Part shown: one piece after another, positions 972-26,352 of the stretch
Layout: every line of letters starts with the position of its first letter
How positions within the stretch are numbered: the first letter of the stretch is position 1
DNA from: a virus
Direction: 5' to 3' (one strand)
IMG/VR virus record: IMGVR_UViG_3300027779_000099
Span: 1-30,696 of that record
Length of the DNA: 30,696 nucleotides
The notes under the pieces: generated by a model
What the model saw: only the letters and a program-made list of their open reading frames with translations
Told to the model about the DNA's origin: nothing
Databases searched by the model: none
Program-made: the position numbers and the translations under genes

Positions 972-1358
972 ATGAAACTAAGTAAAATAATAAAGGAGAT
1001 TAATAAAGATGAGATCAATATGATTGGTTATGATCTAAATGATCTTGAATTTGAAAATGTCAAACATATATTTCCAAAAATAACAGATGGAAATTACGGA
1101 TCATCAGTAGCATTTCCCGAACCATCCGATAGTATGGTAATGATTGGAAATGAAGACTCTTTAGAACGCTGGAAAGTAGATATTAAAAGCAGATATGGTA
1201 ATGTAGAAATAAGGTTCTACCCTCATGCAACAGCATGGTTCGATAAAGTAAAAGTACACGATAGTAAATTTATACAAGACAAAGAGGATTATACAAACGC
1301 CAAAGGACGTTGGCTAGATAAAGAAAGAAAAGCCGGAAAGTCATCTGGATTAGATTAA
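972..1358 (+). CDS. Small protein with capsid-targeting-like N terminus, function unknown
   Basis: A 128-aa protein that I do not recognise as a family. It starts MKLSKIIKE, the clearest form of the N-terminal tag shared by several proteins here, with Glu9 at the position where a gp21-type protease would cut. The rest is a mixed alpha/beta sequence with aromatic strands (around residues 80-95) and a highly charged, Lys-rich C terminus. By analogy with T4 internal proteins it may be packaged in the head and injected. It is preceded by a TATTTATA element and followed after 10 nt by the kinase-like gene. The tag assignment is inference from pattern; no enzymatic motif is visible. Confidence 0.6.
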   Translation: MKLSKIIKEINKDEINMIGYDLNDLEFENVKHIFPKITDGNYGSSVAFPEPSDSMVMIGNEDSLERWKVDIKSRYGNVEIRFYPHATAWFDKVKVHDSKFIQDKEDYTNAKGRWLDKERKAGKSSGLD

Positions 1359-1368
1359 AATTGTTAAT

Positions 1369-1809
1369 ATGAAAAAACACAGAATCACATTAGGAGAAGT
1401 TCTTCAATATGATCCTGATTTTGAGAATGAGGTTGATAAAATTAAAAATCAAGGAGGAGTATATATTAGCAACAAACCATCAGGAGATTACGGAACAGTT
1501 TTTCTCTTAAACGGCAAAGCCGTAAAAGTTACTACAGATTCAGTAGAACTTGAACATGCACAAAAACTCAAAGGTAAAAAAACCAATAACTTCGTTTTTA
1601 TCTACGATGTAACACAGAGAAATGAGAAATTAGGTATCATTACAATGGAAGTTCTCGGTCAATTAAATCAGCAAATACCGGAAGAATGGGTAGAAGCAAC
1701 TGAAAAAGAAGCACAGAGACTGGGTATAGATCCTGAAGAATTAGATTTTATAGGAGATAACGTGATGGAACATCCTAAAACAGGTAAATTAAAAATGATT
1801 GACGTTTAG
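1369..1809 (+). CDS. Minimal protein-kinase-like protein
   Basis: The 146-aa product reads like a kinase fold cut down to its ATP-binding parts. A glycine-rich loop SGDYGTV lies at residues 38-44 and an AVKVT lysine strand at 51-55 (Lys53). A candidate helix-C Glu is at 60-62, and a hinge-like ITMEVLG at 91-97. A catalytic-loop-like D126-x4-N131 follows, and the protein ends in MIDV, whose Asp145 sits where the DFG Asp would be. The spacing from D126 to N131 (5) and from N131 to D145 (14) matches kinases. The large C-lobe is missing, so it may be a pseudokinase or a reduced enzyme. The N terminus MKKHRITLGE has L-G-E at residues 8-10, a weaker version of the tag seen in neighbours. Confidence 0.5.
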   Translation: MKKHRITLGEVLQYDPDFENEVDKIKNQGGVYISNKPSGDYGTVFLLNGKAVKVTTDSVELEHAQKLKGKKTNNFVFIYDVTQRNEKLGIITMEVLGQLNQQIPEEWVEATEKEAQRLGIDPEELDFIGDNVMEHPKTGKLKMIDV

Positions 1810-1863
1810 TTGGTAGTTTAAGATTTTTTTCATATCTTTACTATAGAGTAGTTACAGCACTTT

Positions 1864-2787
1864 ATGGAATATACCGTTTTACTAGCTTCTGTCGAAAATC
1901 TATTAGGCAAGAGTCACAAGAGGTCTAGGGGCAATCACGCCTTCTCTTGTCCCTTTTGTAATCATAGAAAACCGAAGCTAGAAATTAATTTTGCGACTAA
2001 TGAGGAAGGACAGAATCCTTGGGAATGTTGGGTATGCCAAACAAGAGGAAGAACCATTCGTTCCCTACTGTACCAATTAAAGGTACCAAAAGAAGAAGCA
2101 AATGATATATTAAAGTACCTACCAAAAGGACAGACATATAATTTAGATTTGAGCACCGTAGTTCAATTACCTAAAGAATTCCAGTTACTAACTAATGCAA
2201 CACCTACCTCATATGTAGGTAATATAATTAAAAAGTATCTATATGCGAGAGGATTTACCAACAATGATTTTATTAAATATGGTATTGGATACTGTACAAG
2301 TGGAGAATATGGAGGACGAGTTATTATACCAAGTTATAATGAATCCAACCAACTCAACTTTTTTGTTGCAAGAACTTATGATGGGAATTATTTTAAGTAC
2401 AAAAATCCGGAAGCTAGTAAAGACATAATTATTTTCGAAAACCTTATTAACTGGAATGCTCCTATAGTAATATGTGAGGGTGTGTTTGATGCAATAGCTA
2501 TTAAACGAAATGCCATTCCAATTCTAGGAAAATCAATAAGTAATTCCTTAATGATAAAATTAATACAAAGTAAATCTAAAGAAATATACATTGCTTTAGA
2601 CAAAGACGCTCAATACAAAGCCTTTCAGTATAGTGAACAGTTCTTAAGTATGGGCAAAAAGGTTTTCATGGTAAAAATGGAGGAAAAAGATCCTAGTGAG
2701 ATGGGATTCAAAAATTTCACAAAACATATACAAACTGCAGAAGAGTTGGACCTTCAAGCTATAATGCAATATAAATTAAGCTTATGA
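1864..2787 (+). CDS. DNA primase (CHC2 zinc finger plus TOPRIM)
   Basis: A 307-aa DnaG-type primase that would make RNA primers for lagging-strand synthesis, the role of T4 gp61. A CHC2-like zinc finger uses C29-x2-C32 and C55-x2-C58. A DnaG-core strand GGRVIIPSY is at 150-157. The TOPRIM domain has EGVFDA at 205-210 and ALDKD at 244-248, giving the metal-binding Glu and DxD. There is no helicase domain, so this is a stand-alone primase, unlike T7 gp4. The 54-nt gap upstream has no TATTTATA element, which suggests a different (earlier) promoter from the virion genes. It overlaps the next gene by ATGA, so the nuclease is probably co-translated. Confidence 0.85.
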   Translation: MEYTVLLASVENLLGKSHKRSRGNHAFSCPFCNHRKPKLEINFATNEEGQNPWECWVCQTRGRTIRSLLYQLKVPKEEANDILKYLPKGQTYNLDLSTVVQLPKEFQLLTNATPTSYVGNIIKKYLYARGFTNNDFIKYGIGYCTSGEYGGRVIIPSYNESNQLNFFVARTYDGNYFKYKNPEASKDIIIFENLINWNAPIVICEGVFDAIAIKRNAIPILGKSISNSLMIKLIQSKSKEIYIALDKDAQYKAFQYSEQFLSMGKKVFMVKMEEKDPSEMGFKNFTKHIQTAEELDLQAIMQYKLSL

Positions 2788-3566
2788 TAAAGCAAGGAAT
2801 GAATATTCTAAAAGAGCATTCAAAAAAGAGATTAGAATTCAACCCAGATTTAAAACAAATAAATTTTCTCGATAGAAGAGTGTACCAAAGATCGGAAGGA
2901 GTATTTTACCCATCTGTAACTACAATACTCCAGTATATGCCCAAGAATAAGTTTTTCGAAACATGGATGAAAGACGTTGGGCATAATGCCGATCTAATTA
3001 TGCGGAGAGCAGGTAAACAGGGTACACAGGTACATGAAGCAGCTGAACAGTTAGTATTAGGAGAAGAAATTAGTTGGATAGACGATTACGGTAAAGCAAA
3101 GTATAGTCAACTAGTATGGGAAATGATTCTTAAGTTTTACGACTTCTGGACAACCCATAAACCAGAACTAATATCATCAGAAGACTTTGTATGGTCAGAT
3201 AAACATAAATATGCAGGTACAGCAGACCTAGTAGTAAAGATGAATGGCGAAATTTGGTTATTAGATATTAAAACCTCTAACTCAGTACACAAGTCATTTG
3301 ACTTACAGTTAGCTGCATATGCTAAAGGATTAGAAGAATCTAAAGGCATTAAAGTAGAAAGAACAGGTATCATTTGGCTAAAAGCACATTCAAGAGGTCC
3401 TTCTAAACAAAAGAACGTAATACAGGGTAAAGGATGGAAGTTATTACAGATAGATGATATCGAAACTAATTTCGAATTGTTTAATAGTATTTATAATCTT
3501 TATAGGTTAGACCACCCTACAACAGAGCCTATTTATTATAAATACCCAACAAAATTAAAGATATGA
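2784..3566 (+). CDS. PD-(D/E)XK nuclease of the RecB/Cas4 type
   Basis: A 260-aa single-domain nuclease. The expected motifs occur in order: GTQVHEAAE at 80-88 (His84), an SSEDFV element at 131-136, AGTADLV at 144-150 (Asp148), LLDIKTS at 159-165 (Asp161 and Lys163), and QLAAYAKG at 175-182. Together these form the PD-(D/E)XK active site of RecB-, AddB- and Cas4-like exonucleases. It overlaps the primase gene by 4 nt and the lipoprotein gene by 4 nt. Next to the primase, a role in replication, recombination or host-DNA degradation is likely. There is no cysteine cluster for a Cas4-type iron-sulphur site, so a plain RecB-like exonuclease is the better reading. Confidence 0.8.
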   Translation: MIKQGMNILKEHSKKRLEFNPDLKQINFLDRRVYQRSEGVFYPSVTTILQYMPKNKFFETWMKDVGHNADLIMRRAGKQGTQVHEAAEQLVLGEEISWIDDYGKAKYSQLVWEMILKFYDFWTTHKPELISSEDFVWSDKHKYAGTADLVVKMNGEIWLLDIKTSNSVHKSFDLQLAAYAKGLEESKGIKVERTGIIWLKAHSRGPSKQKNVIQGKGWKLLQIDDIETNFELFNSIYNLYRLDHPTTEPIYYKYPTKLKI

Positions 3567-4537
3567 AGAACTTAATCTACCTATTATTAGTAACATTAAC
3601 AATTTCTTGCTCATCTTTTCGTGTATCTACATTAAACTATGACCCAATCTATGGTCCTGATGGAACTGAAATAAAAGTAGATACTATTGAATCCGAATGG
3701 GAATTAAATAGGAAGTTTAGATTTGATGATAGATTTAGATGGGATTTTGCACAATATGCAATGACACAAAACCTAAGATGGCATACTGATTTTTATTGGA
3801 ATAACAGAATGCATAGAAGTCCATTCGCATCATCCTTTGATTTCTATTGGAACTCAAATGAATACTGGTGGAATTGGGCAAGTAACTATCCATTTAATTA
3901 TGGATTCAATCATTGGGATAGATTTGGATTCTATGGTAACTATGGGTATAATAGTTGGAATAATTGGGGGAGTTATGGATATGGTTGGAATCATTGGGGT
4001 TGGAGACAACAAATGAATACTTATGCTTGGCAACATAGAAATAGACCTAATACAGCTTATATTAATGGTAGAAGAGGTTCAAATATTAATAATAATAATA
4101 TTGGCAGACGTGTTGTAGATATAGTCAATAATAATAACAATAGTGTTAGTAGTGTTATAAGAATAAACAAACCAAGACCAAATACAACAACAGAAACAGT
4201 TGATAATACATTAGATTGGAATATTAATGATATAACAAATACATTAATTAAAAATTTTAATGGAAACGTAATAAGAGTTTATACTAATCCAAACAATGTA
4301 CCTAATGTAATTATTAGAAATAACAACAACAGTAACAATAATAGTAATAACGTAAGAGGTTCTTGGAAACCCAATAATAACTCAAGTAATAATAACGTTA
4401 GAGTTTATCAAAGACCATCGAATAATGGTTCATCCAATATTAGAAACTCATCATCTAATAATACAAAGTCATCATCTTCTTCATCAAATAATACAAGAAG
4501 CAGCGTTAAAAGTGGAAATAATAATAAAAGACAATAA
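3563..4537 (+). CDS. Asn/Ser- and aromatic-rich lipoprotein
   Basis: The 324-aa product begins with a short lipoprotein signal peptide (charged MKN, hydrophobic 4-14, then ISC with Cys16 as the lipidation residue). Residues 58-155 are very rich in Trp, Tyr, Asn and Gly. Residues 172-324 are almost wholly Asn, Ser, Arg and Thr. I know this architecture from flavobacterial surface lipoproteins, which makes it a likely host-derived gene. The mature protein would sit in the outer membrane or envelope of a Bacteroidetes host, where superinfection exclusion or envelope modification are plausible roles. It overlaps the nuclease gene upstream and shares a TAATG junction with the P-loop kinase downstream. 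No catalytic motif is visible. Confidence 0.7.
   Translation: MKNLIYLLLVTLTISCSSFRVSTLNYDPIYGPDGTEIKVDTIESEWELNRKFRFDDRFRWDFAQYAMTQNLRWHTDFYWNNRMHRSPFASSFDFYWNSNEYWWNWASNYPFNYGFNHWDRFGFYGNYGYNSWNNWGSYGYGWNHWGWRQQMNTYAWQHRNRPNTAYINGRRGSNINNNNIGRRVVDIVNNNNNSVSSVIRINKPRPNTTTETVDNTLDWNINDITNTLIKNFNGNVIRVYTNPNNVPNVIIRNNNNSNNNSNNVRGSWKPNNNSSNNNVRVYQRPSNNGSSNIRNSSSNNTKSSSSSSNNTRSSVKSGNNNKRQ
4080..4534 (+). repeat. Low-complexity AAT/AGT-rich coding tract
   Basis: Runs of AAT and AAC Asn codons mixed with Ser codons encode the C-terminal half of the lipoprotein. The tract is imperfect and in frame, so it is a coding low-complexity region and not a microsatellite in non-coding DNA. It would be prone to length change by slippage. 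Confidence 0.6.
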
Positions 4538-5472
4538 TGAAACTAAGCGACATCATTTTAGAAGTTAATAATGGAAAACCAAAAGCAGTAATAATGGCTG
4601 GAGGAGCCGGTGTAGGTAAATCCTATATTCTTAATCAATTGCATTTAGATAGCCTAGAGCAATTTAATGCTGATAAATACGTTGAAGATCCTAAGAGCCC
4701 AATGTATAATAAGTTAGGACCAGCAGCAGCACAAAATGACAAAGATGTTAATTTAGCAATTGAAAACGGAACCAGTTTCGTATGGGATACAACAGCTTCA
4801 GGAGTACGTTTTATGAAGACGTTATCCAAACTAATAAGAAAAGGATACGATATATACATGGTAATGGTGTATTCTCACCCAATGATATCCTATATGCAAA
4901 ACTTTGCTAGAGAAAGAAACATTCCTGCACCAGCAGTATTCTCTACATGGAGAAATGTATACCAAAAAATAGCTGAATATAGTAAACTAGTTAATGGTAA
5001 TATTTCTATATTTGTAAATGACTATAATGGTAAATTTAAAAAAGAGGTAGAAGGTTTTAATACTGCAGCTAAAGGCGGAGTAGACGGAATTAAGAAGTAC
5101 CTAGAAAAATATAATGAACTAAAAGGAGTAGGTCAATCATCATTCTTTACTCCTATAGAAATGACACCTGAAGAAGAAAAAGCATTTGCTTCAGCAGTAT
5201 CCGGTATCAGTAGAGACATTAATAACAGAGGAGAAGATAAAGCTGTTAAAAAAGAATTCTTAAAAACATTTCAAAACAATGGAGTTGGACCTGGAGCAGA
5301 TAAATTAAAATTAGCTATTACTAAATATAACGACAGTAAAGATAAAAGAGATGCAGCCCATAACGATATATTAAAAAATATTGCAGATATGATATTCTCA
5401 CCTGAGTTTCAAGAGATATTAAGACATTCAACACCATCTGAAATAGATAGTAAAATTCAAAACTTTTTGTAA
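4537..5472 (+). CDS. Zeta-toxin-like P-loop kinase with capsid-targeting-like N terminus
   Basis: This 311-aa protein starts MKLSDIILE and is followed at once by a P-loop kinase domain: Walker A GGAGVGKS at 22-29, NADKYVED at 44-51, WDTTASG at 83-89 and a lid-type ARERNIPAP at 124-132 with two Arg. This is the pattern of zeta-toxin and polynucleotide-kinase-like small-molecule kinases. Zeta toxins phosphorylate UDP-N-acetylglucosamine, but the substrate here is not readable. Residues 190-311 form a helical, charged extension without a recognised domain. The tag at residues 1-9 suggests packaging into the head and delivery with the DNA. The start codon overlaps the lipoprotein stop (TAATG). 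Confidence 0.7.
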   Translation: MKLSDIILEVNNGKPKAVIMAGGAGVGKSYILNQLHLDSLEQFNADKYVEDPKSPMYNKLGPAAAQNDKDVNLAIENGTSFVWDTTASGVRFMKTLSKLIRKGYDIYMVMVYSHPMISYMQNFARERNIPAPAVFSTWRNVYQKIAEYSKLVNGNISIFVNDYNGKFKKEVEGFNTAAKGGVDGIKKYLEKYNELKGVGQSSFFTPIEMTPEEEKAFASAVSGISRDINNRGEDKAVKKEFLKTFQNNGVGPGADKLKLAITKYNDSKDKRDAAHNDILKNIADMIFSPEFQEILRHSTPSEIDSKIQNFL

Positions 5473-5475: not shown

Positions 5476-6657
5476 ATGGCAATAGCACTATACCCAGGAG
5501 CATTTAAACCACCTCATAAAGGTCATTTTGAAGTAGCAAAACTACTACTTAATGGAAGTTATAATGGACAAGTATATAATATAGACGATTATACTGAAAA
5601 AGGAGGGAGTGTTCTCAATAACGATAAGAGCACTAAACCGGATATTAGTAAAGTAATAATCTTTCCCGGTGGCGGAGAACGTAACGGTATAACTAAAGAA
5701 GAAGCAACCGCTATATGGACAATGTATGCAAAACACCTACCAGGTGTAGTAATAGAAGATGGACAGAAAAACCCAATGTTTGCAGCTAAAGATTATGCTA
5801 AAGCAAATCCAACACAAGAGTTTTATGCAATAACAGGTATTAGAGAAGAAGAAGATTTAGTAGATTTAAAAAGAGTTACTACATTTAAAAATGTACCTAA
5901 CGTTGGAGGATTAGTTATCTCTAATAAAGCAACTCAAGGAGTTAGAGCTACTAATTTACGCAACATAGCACTACAGGGCAGTCTAGACGATATTAGAGAC
6001 TTCTTCCCAAAAGAACTAAGCAGAGAAGATCTATTAGAAATAATTAATATGTTAAAATCATCAATAATACAAGAAGCTTTTGAAGGCGCAGCATTCAAAA
6101 CAATAGACGACCACTTTTTAAAAGAAGATACTCCTTTCAAAGCAGCACCTTCTAAAGATAGAGAAAAACTTGGAGCACTATACACCCAATTACAGGGTAT
6201 GATTAGTACTGATTCATATAGTTTACAAATGAACCAAGACCATATTAGAATCTCATTAAGTAATAATAAGAGAATAGATAATTTTGAATTCGCACCATTT
6301 ATGGCATCCTTATTAGAGTATATGATAGATGAAGGAATGAAGATAATACCATTACCCGAAATAAAGATTAAACAAGATATTACAGAAGCAGACAACTTCT
6401 TCGGAAGAACAGCTTACTACAATCCAGGAGAAAAAGAACTAGTAGTCTATACATTAGGTAGACACCCTAAAGATGTTATGAGATCTTTTTCACACGAAAT
6501 GATTCACCATGAACAGAACCTACAAGGACGTTTAAAAAGTTACGGTACTACCAATACCAATGAAGACGATGCTTTAGTAGAAATAGAAAAAGAAGCATAT
6601 CTAAGAGGAAACATTACATTTAGAAACTGGGAAGATAAAATAAAGAATGAGCGTTAA
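5476..6657 (+). CDS. Nucleotidyltransferase (NMNAT/cytidylyltransferase type) fused to an HExxH metalloprotease-like domain
   Basis: The 393-aa product has an N-terminal nucleotidyltransferase: LYPGAFKPPHKGH at 5-17 carries the HxGH motif (His14, His17), and SNKATQGVRATNLR at 149-162 corresponds to the C-terminal Ser/Arg motif. Such enzymes move AMP or CMP onto a small substrate, as in NAD synthesis. Residues 192-200 read MLKSSIIQE, a near copy of the tag at the N termini of neighbouring proteins. The C-terminal part contains SHEMIHHEQ at 339-347, an HExxH zinc site (His340, Glu341, His344), with candidate third ligands Glu369-Glu373. The gene may therefore be a fusion, or may contain an internal start at 6049. 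Its end overlaps the HAD gene by 11 nt. Confidence 0.75.
   Translation: MAIALYPGAFKPPHKGHFEVAKLLLNGSYNGQVYNIDDYTEKGGSVLNNDKSTKPDISKVIIFPGGGERNGITKEEATAIWTMYAKHLPGVVIEDGQKNPMFAAKDYAKANPTQEFYAITGIREEEDLVDLKRVTTFKNVPNVGGLVISNKATQGVRATNLRNIALQGSLDDIRDFFPKELSREDLLEIINMLKSSIIQEAFEGAAFKTIDDHFLKEDTPFKAAPSKDREKLGALYTQLQGMISTDSYSLQMNQDHIRISLSNNKRIDNFEFAPFMASLLEYMIDEGMKIIPLPEIKIKQDITEADNFFGRTAYYNPGEKELVVYTLGRHPKDVMRSFSHEMIHHEQNLQGRLKSYGTTNTNEDDALVEIEKEAYLRGNITFRNWEDKIKNER
6049..6657 (+). other. Possible internal translation product: tagged HExxH domain alone
   Basis: An in-frame ATG at 6049 inside the nucleotidyltransferase gene would give a 202-aa product beginning MLKSSIIQE. That matches MKLSDIILE and MKLSKIIKE in length, in Ser4 or Ser5, in the I-I pair at 6-7 and in Glu at 9. 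The bases before it (AATAATTAAT) look like other start regions in this phage. The alternative is a fossil of gene fusion, with no initiation here. Confidence 0.35.
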
Positions 6658-7192
6658 ACTAACAGATTTACTAGAAACATATCCACTACCTGAACAAAAG
6701 GTAGTTCCACCATATCAAATATACTGCGATATGGATGGAGTATTAACTGATTTTGAATCCCGATTCGATCACTTTACTGGAATGCACCCTCAAGATTACG
6801 AAAAGAAACACGGAGCACCAGGATTTTGGGATTTGATTGATAACCAAATTGGAGTTAAATTCTGGGTAGGTATGGATTGGATGCCTGGAGGAGAGCAACT
6901 ATGGAACTTTATTAAACCATACCAACCACACTTACTTACTTCTCCTTCTAGAAATGATAATTCTAGATTAGGAAAAAACCTATGGGTTAAGAATAATTTA
7001 AACCCAAAACCAAAAGTGATATTTGCATACTCAAAAGATAAACAAACAAAAGCTAACCCACAGAGTATATTAATAGATGATAAAGGATCGAATATAAAAG
7101 AATGGGCAGCAGCCAACGGCATTGCAATTAGGTGTAAAGATGGAAATGTAGTCCCTGTTATAAAACAACTAAAAGACTTAGGTTATGAATGA
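6647..7192 (+). CDS. HAD-family 5'(3')-deoxyribonucleotidase-like phosphatase with tag-like N terminus
   Basis: This 181-aa haloacid-dehalogenase-type phosphatase has motif I CDMDGVLTDF at 27-36 (nucleophile Asp28, acid/base Asp30). Motif II is LLTSPS at 96-101, a Lys is available around 120-135, and motif IV is LIDDKGSN at 142-149. The cap region with FWDLID and FWVGMDW resembles 5'(3')-deoxyribonucleotidases, which dephosphorylate nucleoside monophosphates. The N terminus MSVKLTDLLE fits the recurring tag, with L-L-E ending at residue 10 before the domain starts at about residue 22. Overlaps with both neighbours point to one translation unit with the nucleotidyltransferase gene, suggesting a shared nucleotide-metabolism role. 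Confidence 0.75.
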   Translation: MSVKLTDLLETYPLPEQKVVPPYQIYCDMDGVLTDFESRFDHFTGMHPQDYEKKHGAPGFWDLIDNQIGVKFWVGMDWMPGGEQLWNFIKPYQPHLLTSPSRNDNSRLGKNLWVKNNLNPKPKVIFAYSKDKQTKANPQSILIDDKGSNIKEWAAANGIAIRCKDGNVVPVIKQLKDLGYE

Positions 7193-7813: not shown

Positions 7814-8185
7814 ATGACACAGAAACAAACTTTAGACAATGTTCTAATAGAATTATTGAATATCAAGAAGCAAATGCCGAACGGAGAGCTAAAAGCTTTA
7901 ATCAGAGATGTTAGAGCTCTAAAAGAAGACCTATCAGAACTTAAACATACCCTACTAAACCCAGAAGATGGGGTAATAGTAAAGACTAATCAAAATACTC
8001 AATTCAGACAAAGACTAGAGAAAGGAGATGCTGATTTTCAAACAACTATACGAGAAATAGATAACATAGGTAGATGGAAAGACGGAGTAACCAAAGCATT
8101 GTGGATAGTTTTTTCTCTACTATTGGCTATCATACTACGTTTAATTTTTGAAAGTACAGGATTAGAAGTATTGAAAAAACCATAG
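7814..8185 (+). CDS. Coiled-coil protein with one C-terminal membrane segment
   Basis: The 123-aa product has a long amphipathic helical region at about 1-50 (VRALKEDLSELKHTLL heptads), a second helical stretch at 60-90 and one hydrophobic segment at 95-113 (ALWIVFSLLLAIILRLIF). It ends in a short basic tail. This is a tail-anchored inner-membrane topology, with the coiled coil probably cytoplasmic. Small phage proteins of this shape are often annotated as holin-like, or as membrane-anchored proteins close to lysis or entry genes, but no endolysin is present in this window. It stands alone between two gaps that each contain a TATTTATA element, so it is probably transcribed as a unit or read through. 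Confidence 0.65.
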   Translation: MTQKQTLDNVLIELLNIKKQMPNGELKALIRDVRALKEDLSELKHTLLNPEDGVIVKTNQNTQFRQRLEKGDADFQTTIREIDNIGRWKDGVTKALWIVFSLLLAIILRLIFESTGLEVLKKP

Positions 8186-17845: not shown

Positions 17846-19619
17846 AACAATCACAGCAACAGAAAAGCATAGAGCCGTAAAAAACGGACTTATGGCCGAA
17901 TCTGAATTTACTAGACAAATGCGTCAACTTTACCCAATGTACATATCAGTACTAAGTGGATTTAAAGATACAGTTCAGATTTTAAAAAATAGAGGAATGC
18001 TTTATGAAGAAGTAGAAGAAGATACTTCACATAACTTCTCACCAGAAGCATTACAGAGAGGAACTAATGCCGAACTTGATAAGAAAGGTATTGACTCTGT
18101 GACTGCATCAGAAAAAGATAGAACCGCTTGTGAAAAAGTGGCTATTAAAAAATTAAAAAAAGACGTATTATATTATTTAAACATACTATCAGGAGATTCT
18201 AGTAAAGTTAATAAGCAGGATAAAGCAGTAGAAACTAAAAGAGGAGCATTGGATGTAGATACTTTTAATGGTCTTAAGAATGCAGAACTTAATGAAGGAG
18301 CAGTAAAGAATAAGATATACGGCTATGCAGAAAGAATAGTGAGTGAATACATAAAACAGAAACAAAATGGTAGTTCCGTTACACTAGAGGATTTATTAGC
18401 TAAGATTAATGCAGAAGATGCTACTAATATGGGAATGGATTATAAGTTCCTTAAAGATCAAGAAGGTAATATACTTAACGCATTGAAAGATATGATGAAA
18501 CCTTCTAATCAAAGATTAAAAACTATACTTAATAGAGGTATAGAAACTATAAAAGCAAAATATCCATCTGTAGCTCATGAAGACATAATTGCATTCATTA
18601 AAACTCATAGAAACGACGTACTAGGAGGAGTTGATATTGCTGACGAATTTGAAGAGTTTGCAGACGCTAATGATATATTAGTAAAAGAACCAAAAGGAGG
18701 TTTAGATAAAGAACCAGGACTAGGAGCTGCATCTATTGCAGATATTGAAGCAATGAAGCACGAACTAGATCCACTTACAGGTAAGAAGATAGTAATGTTT
18801 AAAGAAGACGAAGAAGATAATGCAGTTAACCTTAAACCTTATGAAGTAGGAGATATGTTTTCAAGTGATTTTGATTACACAGGAATGCTTAAAGCAGGAT
18901 TAAGGGTTAGAATTAATACTAATATAGATCAATTAAGAAAACTATATGATTCTTTTGAAGATGTGAATTATCATAGGGAAAATCGACACTTAGGAAGAGC
19001 AATAGACGCAATCGAAGATCAAAATAAATCGGAAGCATTAGATGCTATAAAAGATTTTAAAATAGCTATCTCAAAAACTATTAAAGACATATCCGAAAAT
19101 ACAATCTCAGAAGTAAGAAATCCCCAATCTGAAGATGATTTTGACTCTGAGGATCCAGATGGAAATATGACTAACCAGGAGAAAAGAGCATTAGAAAAAT
19201 TTCATTCGATGGCAGAAGTTAAAGCTGCAGTTAAAGTTGTTATTGAAGGTATTTTAAATGAAGCACAAACAGAAACACTTCAAAAATACATTTCATACGA
19301 AAATAAAGATAATGAAGATTTAGCAGAAAGAATCAGAAACTCAGCTAAAGGATTAACAGATGTATTAGAAGATATGGAAAGATCTTTTCTTAAACACAAA
19401 TCTAAAGTAGAAGGCTACTTAAAAGATGTAGGGTCATTTATGTCACCATCATTAGAGAACGCTTTTAAAATAGACTTAAGAAAAATGAATAAAAATTATG
19501 AAAGAATAACTGGTCCTACGACTAGAAAACTTTCACCTGAGGAATTAGACGCTATCAACAAACAAACTGGAAAAGAGTTAGGCGGGGATGTTTATTCACT
19601 ATCAGAGTCTAAAGAATAA
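17838..19619 (+). CDS. Large helical head-region protein of unknown function
   Basis: A 593-aa, acidic, mostly helical protein between the portal and prohead protease genes. The start region (AVKNGLMAESEFTRQMRQL at about 14-32) looks like a conserved family signature that I have met in phage head regions but cannot name. Internal (L/I)-x-E sites are frequent, including ILNE before Ala474 in a VVIEGILNEAQTE context. The place and composition suggest a prohead core or internal protein that gp21 would process. It overlaps the 75-aa gene by 8 nt, and its end is followed by the protease start 13 nt later. No enzymatic motif is visible. Confidence 0.5.
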   Translation: MSRTITATEKHRAVKNGLMAESEFTRQMRQLYPMYISVLSGFKDTVQILKNRGMLYEEVEEDTSHNFSPEALQRGTNAELDKKGIDSVTASEKDRTACEKVAIKKLKKDVLYYLNILSGDSSKVNKQDKAVETKRGALDVDTFNGLKNAELNEGAVKNKIYGYAERIVSEYIKQKQNGSSVTLEDLLAKINAEDATNMGMDYKFLKDQEGNILNALKDMMKPSNQRLKTILNRGIETIKAKYPSVAHEDIIAFIKTHRNDVLGGVDIADEFEEFADANDILVKEPKGGLDKEPGLGAASIADIEAMKHELDPLTGKKIVMFKEDEEDNAVNLKPYEVGDMFSSDFDYTGMLKAGLRVRINTNIDQLRKLYDSFEDVNYHRENRHLGRAIDAIEDQNKSEALDAIKDFKIAISKTIKDISENTISEVRNPQSEDDFDSEDPDGNMTNQEKRALEKFHSMAEVKAAVKVVIEGILNEAQTETLQKYISYENKDNEDLAERIRNSAKGLTDVLEDMERSFLKHKSKVEGYLKDVGSFMSPSLENAFKIDLRKMNKNYERITGPTTRKLSPEELDAINKQTGKELGGDVYSLSESKE

Positions 19620-19632: not shown

Positions 19633-20211
19633 ATGGCACAATTATTAGTAGACGTTACCCCGTTTAAATCTACACTAACAGAATCCAAAACTAAACCTGG
19701 TATTTTTGAAGTAGAAGGTGTTATGCAAAGAGCTGGATCGACCAATCAAAACGGTAGGGTTTATGACAAGGAAATACTAGTAAGAGAGTCTAAGAGATAT
19801 GTAGATGAGTTCGTTAATAGAGGAAATGCCTACGGAGAACTCGATCACCCAGAATCACCAATCGTATCATTAAAGAATGCTTCACACATCGTAAAAAAAT
19901 TATGGTGGAAAGGAGACGATTTAATGGGCAAGGTAGAACTTCTGAACACCCCTTCCGGAAACATTGTTAAAGAGATTATTAGAGCAGGACATACAATAGG
20001 TATTTCATCAAGAGGAACTGGTTCAGTTGAACAAACAAACGAAGGCGCTTTAGAAGTCCAACCTGATTTTGAATTAGTATGTTGGGACTTTGTATCTAAT
20101 CCATCAACCCATGGAGCATTTATGAATCCTATAGCACTACAGGAAGGTAAGACTAAAGTAAACAAATTCGCATTAGTTGATGCTATTATTAACGATATAT
20201 TACGCGCTTAA
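19633..20211 (+). CDS. Prohead protease (gp21-like)
   Basis: This 192-aa serine protease processes the prohead by cutting scaffold, capsid and internal proteins, typically after (L/I)-x-E. Evidence is GRVYDKEIL at 41-49, [10 protein letters not shown] at 67-76 with the catalytic His72, GISSRGTG at 123-130 with the nucleophile Ser (125 or 126), and the closing DFVSNPST at 152-159. The in-frame ATG at 19588 lies inside the preceding gene, so 19633 ([11 protein letters not shown]) is the better start. T4 gp21 is 212 aa. Its presence here supports the reading of I-I-x-E tags as cleavage signals. The stop overlaps the next start (TAATG). Confidence 0.93.
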
Positions 20212-22064
20212 TGAAGTTACTAAAAATTTTATTAGAATCTTATGAAGACGATTTAATCACTTTTGGATTTGATTTAGACTATATACAAGAAGTAGTTGAT
20301 CACTTAGAAAATAACTATAAAGAAGGGCAAGATTATGAGTTACATGTAGGAAGAGGAGACACTCACCCTAACGCTGTAACTATTAAAAACCCAGCTCTAC
20401 ATAGAGATGCTGATTTAAATGATATGCTTAATGCAGCACAAGGTGATGAAGATAGGTACGATAGTTATGATGATGAAAATCTGAGAGAAGGAGAAGGAGA
20501 TGATCACCACTACATTAAAGTTAAGTCACACGACTATAAGAAAGCTATGGCTATCTTAGATCAAAATGTAGACCCAACCTATGTTAAAATGGAGGTTGTC
20601 GATAACGACGGAGCAGGTAATGTAGTTATATACTTTATATTTAAACATGAATCAGGGTTTGACGATATGTACGATGACCCAGAAGGAAGAGATTCAGAAG
20701 AATTGTATCAAGAACCAGAAGAAGATTCACAAGCATTTGTTTACGATGTTGTAATGGATTTACGAGCAAACGATATTGAACTTGTAGACCAATCTGCAGA
20801 TATGGATGAAGCAATGGATATTAATGATCCAGTTCTTATGAAAATGAGGGCAGCTAAAATGAAAACACTTCGACCAGAACCAACTAGAGGAATAGATAAT
20901 GATGAAGCTTTAAATTTAAGAGCTATAAAATCAGAAATAGAAGACAGAATAACACAGCTATGGATTGATATGGAGCAGGAAGCTGAGCCTGAAGGTGGTC
21001 CAATTGCAGACAGATATGGAGCTGAGCTAAATAAACTTGAAGATCGTTTAGAAAAAGTTCAAAAGCAATTGAGAGATTATGATATGAATGAAGGAAAATC
21101 CGCTAAGGAATTAAAAGCACATATTGCAGCTCTCTCTAAAGCAAGAGCAGCAGCGGCATCTAGCGGTAAAACCACACTACTCAACAGCCTACATAAAGAT
21201 ATATCTAAAGCACAGAAGGAATTAAGAAAACTATCTAATGCTGGAGATATTAGTGAAATTCATGTAGAAGATAATAGAATCTACCCACTACTTAAAAAAG
21301 GAGGGCAACCTACAGACAATCAACCCTATATTCTATTAGATAAAAACCAGAAGAATATTATTGCTTTCACCTCCTTTAAGCAACCATCAGTAGTAAAGTT
21401 TGCTAATGCATACGGTTTTGAGGAAAGTAATTGGCTAGGACAACTTAATAATTGGACTGGTAAGTGCTCAATAGAACACAAAGAAGAACTTATCAAAACT
21501 ATAGCAGCAGCCAATGCAGCAGAAACTGAAAGTAAAGCATCTTGGTATACAGCAGCTGGAGGAATCGGCTCAATCTCAGAGAATGAATTTACACAATTAG
21601 CAACCGCTATTGAAAAAGAATTAAAAGATAAAGCCCCTGTAGAAGAATCAATTGGAGTTGTAGGTGTAATTAGTTATATACTTCTTTCCAATACAGTAGC
21701 AAGTATGGTATCTGGAATGGCTAAAAGAATAGCTAAGAAGCAAGGATGGGAGAATGTAGAGAACAAAGCAGAAGCTATTTACAATTGGACTAGTAAGAAT
21801 GAAGCAGCTTTTATGTCCCCAATAAAAAGAGTTTTATCTGTTATAATGATAGGTAAGTCTAAAAAGTATATAGAACCAGTGACCAAGGGTATTTATGCTG
21901 TACTAATCTTCGCCATGGCAGGACAGTATGGAGGAGAAGCTTTAGCACAGCTAAAGAACTCTAGATGGGGAGCAGGTATATTTAATACTCTCAAGTCCTT
22001 TGTAAAAGGAAAAGAAGTACACACAATCTTCCGTCATATATTAGGAGATTTAGGTCTAAGTTAA
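20211..22064 (+). CDS. Tagged modular protein with hydrophobic C-terminal region
   Basis: The 617-aa product starts MKLLKILLE, an instance of the tag. Residues 99-198 ([19 protein letters not shown], then [13 protein letters not shown]) are a module shared with residues 205-270 of the 833-aa protein. A candidate cleavage site L-R-E before Gly94 lies just ahead of it. The middle (230-345) is long charged helix or coiled coil. Residues 350-450 form a compact domain. Residues 481-503 and 561-580 are hydrophobic, with amphipathic Lys-rich helices around them, which could insert in a membrane. Head packaging and a role during DNA ejection are inferences. It sits between the protease and scaffold genes. 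Confidence 0.5.
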
Positions 22065-22100: not shown

Positions 22101-22107
22101 TACGAAT

Positions 22108-22173: not shown

Positions 22174-22195
22174 CAATACCCAAAACTTTTAAAAA

Positions 22196-23197
22196 ATGGC
22201 AAACAAAGAACTATTTAAGCAAGCTATTGCTGAAGCTAAGTCTGTTCGTGAAGCTGCTATTGCAAACGCTAAAGAAGCATTAGAAGAATCGTTAACACCT
22301 CATCTTAAGGATATGTTGGCTGCTAAACTTCAGGAAATGGATGACTCCAATACTGATGAAGAAGTAGTTAATGAAACTGAAGCTGATGTTGACGAAACTA
22401 AAGAAGCAACTAAAGAAGAAGCAATAACAGAAGAAGAACATGATGAAGAAACAGGAATAGAAGCCGAGGATGAATCTGAAGAATCAGAGGACGGAGCAGA
22501 GCTTACCGCAGATCTAGAAGGAGAAGAAGTAGAAGATGACATCAACGTAGGAGATATGAAATTATCAGACCTTAAAGATGTAATCCAAGACTTACTTTCC
22601 CAAGTAGTAGGTGGAGAACAAGAAGAATTAGGCGCAGAGTTAGACGGAGGAGAAATCGATGCAGCACCATTAGATGGAGCAATCGAAGAACCAGCTGACG
22701 AAGAAGAAATCGATCTTGAAGAACTACTTAGAGAATTAGAAGGTACTAACGCAGCTGTTGCAGAAGAAAAAGCAACAGAAGAAGTAGTATCTGAAAAAGT
22801 TACCAACGAAGAAGAAGAAGAAGTTAAAAAAGAAGCAGTAGATGCTGAGTTAAACGAAGCTTTAGACACAGTAAAAAGCTTAAAGACTCAATTATCTGAA
22901 GTTAACACTTTAAATTCTAAACTACTTTACGTTAACAAAATATTCAAAGCTAACAACTTAACTGAATCACAAAAGGTGAACATTATCGCAGCCTTTGATA
23001 AAGCTGAAACAGTAAAAGAAGTTAAGCTTGTTTATGAAACTGTTGCTGGAAATATCGCTAAACCTGTTAACTCAATAAAAGAGGTAAAAGGAATGGCAAG
23101 TAAGGCTACTGGTACAACAGCTAAAAAACCAGGAGTTATTACAGAAGCAAACGAAACAGTTCGTAGAATGCAAAAATTAGCTGGAATAATAAATTAA
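22196..23197 (+). CDS. Prohead core scaffold protein (gp22-like)
   Basis: The 333-aa protein has the composition of a T4-type scaffold: Glu/Asp/Ala-rich, helical and coiled. The start is MANKELFKQAIAEAKSVREAAIANAKEAL cut in two helices, with I-A-E before Ala14, an ideal gp21 cleavage site. A long acidic stretch covers residues 55-215, and a helical C terminus ends with VRRMQKLAGI. The scaffold builds the prohead core and is degraded to small peptides by gp21. Its position just before the capsid gene matches T4 gp22. It has a long structured leader and no Shine-Dalgarno sequence. Confidence 0.85.
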   Translation: MANKELFKQAIAEAKSVREAAIANAKEALEESLTPHLKDMLAAKLQEMDDSNTDEEVVNETEADVDETKEATKEEAITEEEHDEETGIEAEDESEESEDGAELTADLEGEEVEDDINVGDMKLSDLKDVIQDLLSQVVGGEQEELGAELDGGEIDAAPLDGAIEEPADEEEIDLEELLRELEGTNAAVAEEKATEEVVSEKVTNEEEEEVKKEAVDAELNEALDTVKSLKTQLSEVNTLNSKLLYVNKIFKANNLTESQKVNIIAAFDKAETVKEVKLVYETVAGNIAKPVNSIKEVKGMASKATGTTAKKPGVITEANETVRRMQKLAGIIN

Positions 23198-23227
23198 ATC
23201 AATTAATAACCCTTTTATTTTTAAACC

Positions 23228-24826
23228 ATGGAAATTAACAACCTATTAGAAAGCGCAAACTCCTTCAAAAGCTTACAAGCTGATGCAGGTCGTTTAGCTG
23301 ACAAATGGCAAAAATCAGGTCTTCTTGAAGGTCTTGAGAAAAAAGATACCCAAAACATGGCTATGATCCTAGAGAACCAAGCTAAGCAAATTGTTGCTGA
23401 AGCAAATTCAACAGGAGCTACTGGAAGAGGTGTTGGCTTTACAGCCGGCGCTGGAGAACAGTGGGCAGGAGTAGCTTTACCGTTAGTAAGAAAAGTATTT
23501 TCTCAGATCGTAGCAAAAGACTTTGTATCGGTTCAACCAATGAACCTACCTTCAGGTCTAGTATTTTATCTAGACTTTAAGTACGGAACTACAAAAGGTC
23601 AAAGAACAGACGGAGACAATCTTTACGGAAACGTAACAGAAGGTTCTACGAAGATGACTATTGACACTGAAGCTTCTGGAGGTCTTTACGGCGCCGGAAA
23701 ATTTGGATACTCTATCAACGAGCACAGTTTAACTGTTGCTTCACAAGATACTGGATCCGCTGCCACATCTGCATCTATTGCATACAACGACGAACTTATA
23801 CCATCTACATTCAACACTTATGTTGTTGCAATGTCAGCTGTAGATTTCGACGCTGAAGCAGTTAGATCATTTAAACTCTATTCTGCATCAACTGATGTTA
23901 CTTCTAACCCAGAATTAACTACAGTAAGCGGAACAGATGTAACTTTCGTAATTACTGGATCACATGCAATACCTGTTACAGGAGCATTTGCTGGATCTGT
24001 AAAATACTCTCAAGCACCTGGAGACAGTTCAAGAGGCGACTTTGAAGCTTCTGGATCTGCTGCAGTAGATAGCTCAATCACAATACCTGAAATAGACGTT
24101 CAGTTAAAAAGTGAAGCAGTTGTTGCTAAGACAAGAAAGTTAAAAGCACAATGGACACCTGAATTCGCACAGGATCTTAATGCTTATCACTCAATCGATG
24201 CTGAAGCAGAATTAACTTCATTATTGTCTGAGTACATCTCAATGGAAATCGATTTAGAGATCCTTGATATGTTAATTGTTAATGCTAGAACTACTGAAAA
24301 GTGGTCAGCAGAAAACAATAAAGTATGGAACGGTACAGCATTTACTACTTCTACTTCTGATTTTTATAATACTCAAGGACAATGGTTCCAAACATTAGGA
24401 ACTAAAATCCAAAAAGTATCTAATAAGATTCATCAGAAGACTCTTAGAGGCGGTGCTAACTTTATCGTTTGTTCTCCAACTGTTGCAACTATTCTAGAAT
24501 CAATTCCAGGATATGCTGCTAACACAAGTGGTGATCAAGACCAATTTGCAATGGGCGTACAAAAAGTTGGTGCATTAAATAACAGATTCCAAGTTTACAA
24601 GAATCCTTACATGACAGAACAAATCTTATTGTTAGGATACAGAGGAAGTCAATTCCTTGAAACTGGTGCTGTTTATGCTCCATATGTACCTTTATTAATG
24701 ACTCCACTAGTATATGATCCTGAGACCTTCACTCCAAGAAAAGGCCTTATGACAAGATATGCTAAGAAGATCATTAGACCAGAATTCTACGGAAAAATCT
24801 TTATCTCTGATTTAAATCAAATCTAA
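23228..24826 (+). CDS. Major capsid protein (gp23-like)
   Basis: The 532-aa protein (T4 gp23 is 521) builds the head shell. Recognisable T4 gp23 elements are VQPMNLPSGLVFYLDF (about 102-117), the KTRKLKAQWTPEFAQDLNA region followed by HSIDAEAELTSLLSEYIS, and the C-terminal DPETFTPRKGLMTRYAKK. The likely gp21 cut is I-V-A-E58 before Ala59, close to the T4 gp23 cut after residue 65. The N terminus MEINNLLESA itself resembles the short tag. Residues 170-290, rich in Ser, Ala and Thr, probably correspond to the insertion domain. A strong intrinsic terminator follows the gene. Confidence 0.95.
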   Translation: MEINNLLESANSFKSLQADAGRLADKWQKSGLLEGLEKKDTQNMAMILENQAKQIVAEANSTGATGRGVGFTAGAGEQWAGVALPLVRKVFSQIVAKDFVSVQPMNLPSGLVFYLDFKYGTTKGQRTDGDNLYGNVTEGSTKMTIDTEASGGLYGAGKFGYSINEHSLTVASQDTGSAATSASIAYNDELIPSTFNTYVVAMSAVDFDAEAVRSFKLYSASTDVTSNPELTTVSGTDVTFVITGSHAIPVTGAFAGSVKYSQAPGDSSRGDFEASGSAAVDSSITIPEIDVQLKSEAVVAKTRKLKAQWTPEFAQDLNAYHSIDAEAELTSLLSEYISMEIDLEILDMLIVNARTTEKWSAENNKVWNGTAFTTSTSDFYNTQGQWFQTLGTKIQKVSNKIHQKTLRGGANFIVCSPTVATILESIPGYAANTSGDQDQFAMGVQKVGALNNRFQVYKNPYMTEQILLLGYRGSQFLETGAVYAPYVPLLMTPLVYDPETFTPRKGLMTRYAKKIIRPEFYGKIFISDLNQI

Positions 24827-24854
24827 GATAATTTCTACATAGAATTAAATTAAG

Positions 24855-24881
24855 AGAGGGCCTTGTGCCCTCTTTTTTTTT
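24855..24881 (+). terminator. Intrinsic terminator after the major capsid gene
   Basis: AGAGGGC (24855-24861), loop CTTGT and GCCCTCT (24867-24873) form a perfect 7-bp GC-rich stem followed by an unbroken T-run to 24881. It is the only convincing rho-independent terminator in the window and insulates the capsid gene from the neck genes. Confidence 0.9.
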
Positions 24882-24884
24882 GAC

Positions 24885-24892
24885 TATTTATA
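24885..24892 (+). promoter_or_regulatory. CTATTTATA, candidate late promoter of the neck operon
   Basis: TATTTATA preceded by C, three bases after the terminator T-run and 15 nt before the ATG at 24908. A terminator followed at once by this element is the best positional support for promoter function. Confidence 0.55.
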
Positions 24893-24907
24893 AACAAACG
24901 CATACAA

Positions 24908-26050
24908 ATGGCAGATATATCAATATGGGATGGTTCTTCAACCTTCGCCACCGGATCTACACCTTTTGGCTTCTATGATACTGACAGTTCTTTTCAAACA
25001 GACGCTGATAAGGTTGCAAATTTTTGTACTACAAGGTTAGGGTATCCCTTAATGGATGTAGAACTAACCTCTGCATCTATATATGCTTGCTTTGAAGAAG
25101 CAGTTACCACTTATGGTACAGAAGTATTCAATTACAAAATTAGAGAGAATTACATTAATTTAGAAGGATCATCAACAGGTAGTTCAGTAAACAATCAGTT
25201 AATAGATCCATCACTTAACCGTATTATACAGATATCTAATCACTACGGTACTGAAGCCGAAGTAGGAGGTAATGTTAGAAAGTACTCTGGATCAATAGAA
25301 ATATCAGCAAGTAAGCAAGAATATGACATGGACCTTTGGGCCACAGATGCAGGTATAACAGGAGGTATTGAGATACGTAAAGTATTTTATGAAGCACCAC
25401 CAGCTATTATGAGGTATTTTGATCCTTATGTAGGAACAGGAACAGGTATACAGTCTATGATGGACGCATTTGGATTCGGAAGTATGTCACCAGGTATTAA
25501 TTTTATGATGATGCCTGTATCTTACGATATGGCACTACTACAAGGAATTGAATTTAATGACCAGATTAGAAAATCTCACTATTCATTCGAATTAGTAAAA
25601 AATAGATTAAAAGTATTCCCAGCACCTACCGCATCAGGAAGTCTTCAATTCGAATACTTCCAAAAATCTGATAAAACATCAATTAATAGTGATAGTAGTA
25701 CGTCATTAATTACCAACGTAGGAGAAGTCCCTTACGAAAATATAACATACTCCCACCTTAACGCAGTAGGTAGACAGTGGATATTTAGGTATACACTGGC
25801 TTTAACAAAAGAAATATTAGCCTATATAAGAGGTAAATACTCAACAATCCCTATACCGGGAGCAGAAGCAACATTGAATCAAGCAGACCTATTATCAGAT
25901 GCTAGATCAGAAAAGACCTCACTGTTAACAGAACTTACAGAAATGTTAGAACAGACTTCAAGAGGAGCACAATTAACAGCAAAGGCACAGGAAGCAGAAG
26001 ATGTACAGAATACATTAAAAAGTGTGCCTATGAAAATATTTGTAGGATAA
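24908..26050 (+). CDS. Neck protein (gp13-like head completion protein)
   Basis: The 380-aa protein follows the capsid gene and precedes a gp14-like gene, as in T4. Its N-terminal region (KVANFCTTRLGYPLMDVEL, then ACFEEAVTTYG) and the central YFQKSD and YENITYSHLNAVGRQWI match my memory of gp13 homologues in marine T4-like phages. T4 gp13 is 309 aa. It would join the portal ring and help close the filled head and attach the tail. It starts a run of five genes with overlapping stop-start codons or gaps of at most 3 nt. Confidence 0.8.
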   Translation: MADISIWDGSSTFATGSTPFGFYDTDSSFQTDADKVANFCTTRLGYPLMDVELTSASIYACFEEAVTTYGTEVFNYKIRENYINLEGSSTGSSVNNQLIDPSLNRIIQISNHYGTEAEVGGNVRKYSGSIEISASKQEYDMDLWATDAGITGGIEIRKVFYEAPPAIMRYFDPYVGTGTGIQSMMDAFGFGSMSPGINFMMMPVSYDMALLQGIEFNDQIRKSHYSFELVKNRLKVFPAPTASGSLQFEYFQKSDKTSINSDSSTSLITNVGEVPYENITYSHLNAVGRQWIFRYTLALTKEILAYIRGKYSTIPIPGAEATLNQADLLSDARSEKTSLLTELTEMLEQTSRGAQLTAKAQEAEDVQNTLKSVPMKIFVG

Positions 26051-26352
26051 TGATAAAACTAAGTCAAATTATAACTGAGGTAGAGTTTAAAACATACGAA
26101 GCCATGGTGAAAGTTATCTACGGAGAAGTAGAAGCTAATAAATTAGGTGATGTACTTAGAGCTCTACCAGGAGTTTTAACAGTTACCAATGCTGGAGGCA
26201 ATGCAGAAGCAAGTAGCTCTACATTTAAAGTAAAGATTATTTCACAAAAAGAACCTCAAACAGCATTTGACGCCTTTAAGACCAATGCAACTACTAAGTA
26301 CAGTTTTATTAATACTGTAGAAATAGGAATAGAAACAATAGAAGAGAAGTAA
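26050..26352 (+). CDS. Small tagged protein between neck genes, function unknown
   Basis: The 100-aa product starts MIKLSQIITE, a typical tag with I-T-E ending at residue 10. The remaining 90 residues look like a compact alpha/beta domain (ANKLGDVLRALPGVLTVTN, a strand FKVKIIS, helix TAFDAFKTNA, strand VEIGIETI), similar in order to a ferredoxin-like fold. It is inserted between gp13-like and gp14-like genes, with TAATG overlaps on both sides. T4 has no gene there. It could be a neck or decoration protein, or an internal protein; no motif decides. Confidence 0.55.
   Translation: MIKLSQIITEVEFKTYEAMVKVIYGEVEANKLGDVLRALPGVLTVTNAGGNAEASSSTFKVKIISQKEPQTAFDAFKTNATTKYSFINTVEIGIETIEEK

Follow-up and report, generated by a model that had tools for sequence, protein, structure and literature searches.

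The locus and its N-terminal peptides

The stretch of viral DNA described here (the window; 30,696 nucleotides, positions 1 to 30,696 of IMG/VR record IMGVR_UViG_3300027779_000099) carries genes for a terminase (starting at position 13246), a portal protein (14849), a gp21-type head maturation protease (19633), a scaffold-like protein (22196), the major capsid protein (23228) and a neck protein (24908), preceded upstream by a DNA primase (1864) and an exonuclease (2784). The phage of which the window is a fragment belongs to the T4 superfamily and is related to Flavobacterium phage vB_FspM_immuto (hereafter immuto), the closest named phage that we found, which has a similar gene order and whose capsid protein and protease are 69 and 77% identical to those of the window. 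This report concerns a short peptide ending in hydrophobic-x-Glu which stands at the N-terminus of many otherwise unrelated proteins of the window and, it appears, of marine relatives of this phage. An earlier note had compared it with the capsid-targeting sequence (CTS) of the T4 internal proteins and suggested that it marks enzymes which are packed in the head and delivered with the DNA. We refer to this peptide as the tag and number its positions back from the glutamate (E-2, E-3, E-6).

The peptides listed in the earlier note were all found where it had placed them, and every feature given below lies on the + strand. The tag MKLSKIIKE (972-998) begins a 128-residue protein (gene 972-1358), MKLSDIILE (4537-4563) a Zeta_toxin-family P-loop kinase (gene 4537-5472), MSVKLTDLLE (6647-6676) a HAD 5'-(deoxyribo)nucleotidase-like protein (gene 6647-7192), MNRKDLKSIIQE (10781-10816) an acidic 357-residue protein (gene 10781-11854) and MIKLSQIITE (26050-26079) a 100-residue protein (gene 26050-26352). 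A degenerate form, MKKHRITLGE (1369-1398), stands at the start of a minimal protein-kinase-fold protein (gene 1369-1809). The tag MTQKQTLDNVLIE (7814-7852), which the earlier note had overlooked, begins a 123-residue protein (gene 7814-8185) whose translation ends in a hydrophobic segment. Among the head genes, MRLSQLKEIIRE (17618-17653) begins a 75-residue protein (gene 17618-17845) encoded between the portal and the protease, roughly the position of gp67 in the T4 order 20-67-68-21, and MKLLKILLE (20211-20237) begins a 617-residue protein immediately 3' of the protease (gene 20211-22064; phrog_23411, E = 1.8e-9, residues 19-76).

The presumed processing enzyme is encoded at 19633-20211. The earlier note was right to recognize a gp21 homologue here: the product matches phrog_207 with E = 2e-51, and its immuto homolog is annotated as a prohead core protein serine protease. 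The gp22-like scaffold (gene 22196-23197), which was named by its gene order and start and has no family match, has an LxE-type N-terminal site, MANKELFKQAIAE (22196-22234; compare MLKEQLIAE in T4 gp22), and its C-terminal segment RMQKLAGIIN (23165-23194) is a sequence which other phages have at the N-termini of proteins. The major capsid protein also has an N-terminal LxE-type site (23228-23251), and the motif is kept in its homologs. In the displayed alignment rows other sites of this kind, LLE, ILE and VAE, are conserved in the family as far as residue 58; Glu58 (codon 23399-23401) is kept in most of these rows and lies near the FLTE site of T4 gp23, in a different column. The maturation cut would fall after this residue, between IVAE and AN.

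Counted over the 32 proteins of the window, [IL][IL]xE with the glutamate at residues 8-12 occurs in seven, compared with 0.54 expected from shuffled N-termini and 0.30 from internal stretches. For a looser form, [ILVMF]xE with the glutamate at residues 7-15, the corresponding figures are 15, 6.3 and 5.8.

Conservation in homologs

Two fixed patterns were applied to homologs, taken from outside the window, of every window gene: a loose pattern ([ILVF]xE within residues 5-14) and a strict pattern which additionally has a hydrophobic residue at E-6. The loose motif is found in 73-100% of the homologs of ten window families, and in five of these the strict pattern is conserved as well (70-89%). 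These five are 4537 (n = 51; loose 73%, strict 73%), 7814 (n = 48; 75 and 73%), 10781 (n = 45; 93 and 89%), 17618 (n = 56; 96 and 71%) and 26050 (n = 33; 97 and 70%). The other five are 972 (n = 10; 90 and 0%), 1369 (n = 29; 100 and 10%), 6647 (n = 47; 87 and 17%), the scaffold (n = 64; 98 and 0%) and the major capsid protein (n = 46; 100 and 0%); the starts at 1369, 22196 and 23228 are those which the earlier note had described as weaker versions of the peptide. In the alignment of ten 972 sequences M1, K2, L3, I6 and I7 are invariant and the residues right after them vary, while relatives of 1369 start MKLSRVILGE or MKLSKIILEG. Both of these families have a spacing that is longer by one residue, with a hydrophobic residue at E-7 in 9/10 and 24/30 sequences, respectively.

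The loose motif occurs in 0-5% of the homologs of the terminase, portal, 16767, neck and tail-side genes, and in 14% of those of the protease, 24% of those of 7185 and 18% of those of the primase (n = 56). Homologs of 17838 have it in 79% of cases (n = 19), the window copy itself being untagged. For 20211 no homolog was found at a coverage of at least 50%, so that only its own peptide, which fits the strict pattern, can be cited. One of the examples in the earlier note, the protein at 11859, has the motif in neither of its two homologs and has been dropped as a supported case. The protein at 12143 was likewise rejected (0% of 14 homologs); tags do occur in other families with the start MNLIDKVILEW.

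Family-level and genome-level controls

The wider sample comprised 80 loci each around the protease, exonuclease and terminase, among the matches listed, and the whole contigs of six relatives. Our gene-calling script recovered 52/52 stops and 46/52 starts in an annotated stretch of immuto. The 3,032 distinct complete proteins were clustered by body, with the first 20 residues removed, which gave 133 families of at least four members. A search rule requiring hydrophobic residues at E-3 and E-2 and the glutamate at residues 8-13 is obeyed by at least half of the members in 31 of the 133 families. When a profile of the peptide was built with each family left out in turn, a search across relatives of the kind proposed in the earlier note, 30/133 families passed at the N-terminus, compared with between none and two at eight internal offsets. 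The shared N-terminal peptide is thereby confirmed as real. Near-complete relatives each have 8-15 genes that match one fixed pattern, where one or two would be expected from internal stretches. Tags are also regionally enriched (P = 9.5e-5, 5e-5, 6.8e-8 and 0.052), an enrichment that is partly built in because the loci used to train the profile had been chosen for their protease, exonuclease or terminase gene.

T4 served as a positive control. The rule finds seven of ten chosen head proteins (IPII, IPIII, Alt, gp21, gp22, gp24 and gp68, with IPI, gp67 and gp23 being missed) but only 8/248 other genes (P = 5e-8). The full pattern is also fitted by T4 61.1 (18966-19130, MKTFKEFIKE) and by the DNA end protector gp2 (76061-76885, MAIFQIINE), which, judged from their starts, may be unrecognized gp21 substrates.

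The earlier note had warned that leucine- and glutamate-rich starts can arise by chance. Taken over the whole T4 genome the rule does match 15/258 genes, a frequency of 0.058 which we regard as no more than the 0.025-0.051 seen at internal offsets, and two to seven chance matches are to be expected in the 484-kilobase (kb) phage discussed below. As an explanation of the whole set, chance or composition is nevertheless contradicted by the offset, shuffle and family controls, by the gene-by-gene conservation and by the tens of unrelated bodies over which the tag dialects are spread, and we give it almost no credence.

The peptide is rare or absent in several other phages. The fixed pattern matches 0/42 genes in the first 50 kb of crAss001, 1/74 in a second huge phage (LR756511) and 2/44 in the first 50 kb of Microcystis phage Mel-JY01, and the profile score selects 3/52 in the RM378 region. 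A cytidylyltransferase-like protein of Mel-JY01 starts MGKLINILLSE.

A phrog_207 protease (E < 1e-50) is encoded by all 15 of the long tagged contigs tested and by none of 14 control genomes. The 15 contigs, each of more than 100 kb, were chosen from the listed class C, D and E matches described below, the L553 contig and immuto being left out; as the set holds tagged long contigs only, the result is to be read as agreement rather than proof.

Residue pattern and presumed processing site

A hydrophobic residue is present at E-6, a position outside the search rule, in 42 of 53 tagged families compared with 215 of 577 internal rule matches (P = 2.9e-9). The family-weighted frequencies at E-2 are 0.54 for isoleucine, 0.33 for leucine and 0.10 for valine, and are not independent evidence since the rule demands a hydrophobic residue there. 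Translation of T4 IPIII gives the start MKTYQEFIAE, in which E-6, E-3, E-2 and the glutamate are residues 4, 7, 8 and 10. In the excerpts to which our statements on papers cited by PubMed Central number refer, residues 4 and 7 of IPIII serve chiefly in targeting and residues 8 and 10 in processing, and gp21 cuts after L/I-x-E (PMC9026906).

The tag is a short N-terminal extension, with the glutamate placed by the rule at residues 8-13, and two structural models show it as disordered and followed by a folded body. Residues 1-12 are the only stretch of the 972 model with a predicted local distance difference test score (pLDDT) below 50, and in both the 972 and the 1369 models disorder is confined to the tag.

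Tag dialects, modularity and spread

Five sequence classes of tag were distinguished. Class A is MKLSxIILE and class B a longer form, MKRSxLxxLVKE. Class C, NFDL(K/R)KFLxENKLTxNSxxLxE, was collected by a degenerate DNA search of IMG/VR that gave at least 120 stretches, which were pooled with the earlier loci. Class D is RMQKLAGIITE, and class E, KLRxIIKEE, was found in LR756508, an uncultured phage of 484 kb, and on contigs from IMG/VR. Among the matches listed, class A tags are N-terminal in 115/123 cases and class C tags stand at a protein start in 181/189; class D lies within residue 25 in 115/126 proteins, and class E is N-terminal in 46/46. The figures for classes A and E are partly by design, because their patterns include the ATG, and since most residues of class C and D tags are already prescribed by the search patterns, conservation inside them carries no weight.

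The bodies behind the tags are diverse. In single-linkage clusters (BLAST, E = 0.01), which may split remote relatives, the 134 distinct class C proteins among the matches listed form 44 body families, the 111 class D proteins 52 and the 25 distinct class E proteins 21. At locus L264 four adjacent genes carry the class C tag in front of bodies from different families. A fixed pattern which had not been trained on LR756508 tags 41 of its 646 genes, compared with two to seven at internal offsets, and the 41 bodies fall into 40 families. Tagged genes account for 27/105 of those at 140-240 kb, where the protease, scaffold and capsid genes lie, and for 14/541 elsewhere; the start of the DNA primase (121589) also matches, probably by chance. 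A search of 84,980 genomes of bacteria and archaea with the class C DNA pattern gave four matches, of which one was confirmed at a protein start.

Of 71 scaffold-like proteins, 67 contain QKLAGI among their final 12 residues, and the class D leader of cargo proteins may copy this scaffold contact. Class C tags were found inside longer reading frames at L298, L299, L318, L365 and L390, where a cut would be expected to release the second half of the product. At L057, L058, L391 and in G003 (61182-62867) they lie at the very end of longer reading frames. Both arrangements look as if a tagged gene had been fused to the gene upstream of it.

We also considered that the conserved element might act as DNA or RNA at gene starts, for instance as a translation enhancer, recombination site or promoter, with the peptide being incidental. 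Among the matches listed, the DNA identity of class C tags that precede unrelated bodies is 0.729 for the 28 pairs within one genome and lower, 0.637, for the 8,197 pairs from different genomes, and none of 500 label shuffles reaches 0.729. Such likeness would suit a nucleic acid element, but it would also result if genes acquired their tags from one another by recombination. In 139 class A tags all of the main synonymous codons are used, with some skew (ATC at Ile6, 0.31 compared with 0.10 at other N-termini), and selection therefore looks to be mainly at the protein level; class C tags, moreover, also occur in frame within fused reading frames. In view of the codon variation we reject a DNA-level element as the main cause despite the skew, and we regard this explanation as very improbable.

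The tagged proteins

The claim that the peptide stands on many unrelated proteins, enzymes included, holds in that a kinase fold, a Zeta-toxin kinase and a HAD nucleotidase relative are among them; the set is not purely one of effectors. The 4537 product matches Pfam Zeta_toxin with E = 3e-10, above the curated cut-off, and one tagged gene of LR756508 encodes a P-loop kinase of the same family (E = 8e-9, above cut-off). The 6647 product matches phrog_2643 (E = 3.5e-19) from residue 23 onwards. Residues 29-146 of the 1369 model (mean pLDDT 85; best Foldseek E value 1.2e-5) align with residues 6-146 of CDK2 (Z = 9.4, 108 aligned residues, r.m.s. difference 3.3).

The 1369 model is best described as a predicted protein kinase fold that ends near the metal-binding aspartate and lacks the C-lobe. 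In 20 sequences of this family G39, G42, K53, E60, E62, D126, N131 and D145 are invariant; by comparison with kinase motifs, we take these residues to be catalytic. Kinases that lack the whole C-terminal subdomain, including stand-alone ones, occur among predicted injected proteins of Bacteroidetes phages, and kinases of this polyvalent type have a conserved glutamine in the last strand of the N-lobe and an insert between the histidine and the aspartate (PMC5512222). In lacking the C-lobe while keeping invariant active-site positions, the 1369 kinase resembles these published examples, which is an independent argument for injection, even though it is a single small domain of 146 residues and polyvalent proteins are defined by 'two or more disparate domains'.

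Most of the other bodies gave no such assignment. For 30 proteins (29 tagged candidates and the untagged 12143) all Pfam matches were below the curated cut-offs, as they were for ten further proteins (L121:7131-9851 being untagged), and PADLOC matched none of ten proteins. The 972 model has no convincing fold match (best Foldseek E value 0.53; best Z = 3.9 over 59 residues, r.m.s. difference 3.6), which is no evidence for a new fold.

Several tagged proteins of LR756508 (in L528, L532 and L534) have possible ADP-ribosyltransferase motifs, and one has a kinase-like motif, with weak profile matches or none. The likeness to ADP-ribosyltransferases is weak (best Pfam match PTS_2-RNA, 6e-5, below cut-off; RNA 2'-phosphotransferases in the PDB, 7e-4). 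T4 Alt, an injected ADP-ribosyltransferase, is the obvious comparison. A class C tag is carried by the protein of L121 17631-18632 (immuto 117631-118632), which is annotated as a cob(I)alamin adenosyltransferase (PduO) and has no Pfam match; the name may be wrong. The untagged product of 5476-6657 is nucleotidyltransferase-like (phrog_395, E = 4.5e-4) with an HExxH motif in its second half, and two hydrophobic-x-E sites, SIIQE and FLKE, lie between these parts. Its immuto counterpart, of 907 residues, is annotated as NadR, and the peptidase part of that protein weakly resembles Peptidase_M91 (E = 0.006, below cut-off).

Other genes of the window may be mentioned briefly. The gene at 3563-4537, between the exonuclease and the P-loop kinase, encodes an asparagine-rich protein with a lipoprotein-signal-like start, MKNLIYLLLVTLTISCSS, and no PHROG match. 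The C-terminal part of 26840-28063 and the product of 28067-28534 have a repeat in common (KLDSESVSMTT...), a local duplication among tail-side genes, and related proteins resembling tail-fibre ends (RxLKxNIVPIESPLEK...) are encoded at either end of the window (3-290 and 29602-30030).

Proposed role of the peptide

In our view the peptide is probably a capsid-targeting sequence of the T4 kind that is cut by the gp21-type protease and has expanded far beyond what is seen in T4, its cargo leaving the head with the DNA. During head assembly the tag would bind its protein to the scaffolding core through hydrophobic residues, mostly those at E-6 and E-3, that precede the cut site. The protease would then cut after the glutamate of hydrophobic-x-Glu and leave the protein free inside the head. 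For core and shell proteins the site would serve maturation; the other tagged proteins (kinases, a nucleotidase and many small proteins with no assigned function) would be cargo that exits together with the DNA and does its work in the newly infected cell. The tag would then be a general address label, in several dialects and on dozens of unrelated bodies. We lean slightly towards the broader proposition that Bacteroidota phages of the T4 superfamily, along with one or more huge phages, share a general packaging code of interchangeable dialects, one of them copying the scaffold C-terminus RMQKLAGII, by which any protein might be loaded, cut by gp21 and injected.

Several observations weigh against this interpretation. 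The motif is also carried by the scaffold, the major capsid protein, the 17618 protein in the position of gp67 and the membrane-like 7814 protein. Most members of the 972, 1369, 6647, scaffold and capsid families do not fit the strict pattern, 11 of the 53 tagged families lack a hydrophobic E-6, and if E-6 is required in T4 only four of the ten head proteins pass (others 4/248). The residue after the glutamate varies (asparagine 0.22, tryptophan 0.11, glutamate 0.11, valine 0.10 and serine 0.10), as the earlier note had cautioned, with asparagine the most frequent; the tryptophan, which would be unusual at a cut site, is contributed by families with the start MNLIDKVILEW. Regional enrichment is weak in one genome (G004, P = 0.052). 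The head region of S-PM2 has gp21 and yet gives strict matches in 0/59 genes and rule matches in 2/59; the protease therefore does not imply the tag. Finally, no virion proteome of immuto or its kin was found in openly licensed PubMed Central, and cleavage, packaging and injection are here read from sequence.

A further difficulty is the exonuclease (2784-3566; start MIKQGMNILKE), in whose homologs (n = 57) the loose motif is present in 91% and the strict in 2%. Its failure of the strict pattern does not clear it, because 972 and 1369 fail that pattern too; it is either a look-alike or one more tagged enzyme. It bears on an objection raised in the earlier note, that the peptide might be equally common on replication proteins. 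In immuto the strict pattern, the rule and the loose pattern match 0, 2 and 3 of the 24 replication and nucleotide genes, a small control, compared with 17, 22 and 48 of all 219 genes; together with the 18% of primase homologs this speaks for the tag, and the exonuclease speaks against it, so that the outcome is mixed but favourable.

The tagged structural proteins suggest another function, that of labelling components of the scaffolding core, which would help to shape or initiate the prohead, be degraded by gp21 and leave without being delivered. The sites in the scaffold, capsid and gp67-position proteins fit this, as does the hydrophobic segment of 7814, given that T4 proheads leave the membrane after maturation (PMC9026906), and many tagged bodies have no known domain. 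Folded enzymes would be unexpected core parts, however, and the 41 tagged bodies of LR756508 make up 40 unrelated groups, unlike an assembly core. We consider this function unlikely.

In a further alternative, which the free choice of residue after the glutamate favours, the peptide is a docking signal for a partner other than gp21, such as a chaperonin, a membrane site or a phage compartment; class B, C and E tags continue beyond their first glutamate, and immuto is annotated as encoding GroEL and GroES. Against docking, the same rule selects T4 proteins that are reportedly cut by gp21, and among the matches listed a second hydrophobic-x-Glu follows downstream in 111 of 134 class C proteins compared with 18 of 95 background stretches. 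A docking signal of this sort seems to us improbable.

If a targeting sequence cut by gp21 is indeed what these peptides are, the first dozen residues would reveal which phage proteins travel in the head, and many functionless phage genes could then be sorted into a class of candidate early-acting effectors. Under the broader packaging code a large share of the late genes of unknown function would encode delivered effectors, recognizable from their first 12-25 residues. The tagged proteins would form a ready target list for virion proteomics, for which immuto is available as an isolate, and the tags new leaders for loading phage heads. The T4 internal proteins would become a small case of a far wider delivery system.

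Comparison with known systems

That internal proteins are led by a CTS is already published, as is the idea that T4-like phages can take up a variety of proteins by means of the CTS (PMC9026906, PMC12373910). We found no prior description of such tags in Bacteroidota or huge phages in openly licensed PubMed Central. Immuto has the same head gene order and carries classes A/B, C and D, and its annotation table makes no mention of tags.

Polyvalent proteins of phages and conjugative elements include the same kinds of predicted injected protein, namely kinases without a C-lobe, ADP-ribosyltransferases, peptidases and nucleotidyltransferases (PMC5512222). In the account given there they are multidomain, whereas those described here are mostly single-domain proteins with a common short N-terminal label. 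The inner head proteins of SPN3US and phiKZ likewise have N-terminal propeptides which are removed after a glutamate by the prohead protease and for which a role in targeting has been proposed (PMC10052503, PMC5694885). Six of the eight N-terminal propeptides in SPN3US are 111-254 residues long, with the other two being 20 and 24, and the excerpted parts of these papers do not describe a short tag shared by many proteins.

The closest resemblance is to the CTS of T4 IPI-III and Alt, an N-terminal propeptide of 10-19 residues ending in L/I-x-E, with hydrophobic residues at E-6 and E-3, a gp21-type protease and one leader on unrelated bodies (PMC9026906, PMC12373910). The likeness to T4 drawn in the earlier note stands as regards place, length, residue pattern and protease, and has to be given up for the 11859 example and for a set made up of effectors only. 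As far as the sequences allow it to be tested, the device appears to be the same as that of T4, and its scale and dialects appear to be new: T4 packages four such internal proteins (PMC9026906), whereas the phages described here have 8-15 genes per near-complete genome that match one fixed pattern, and tens of unrelated bodies behind several dialects.

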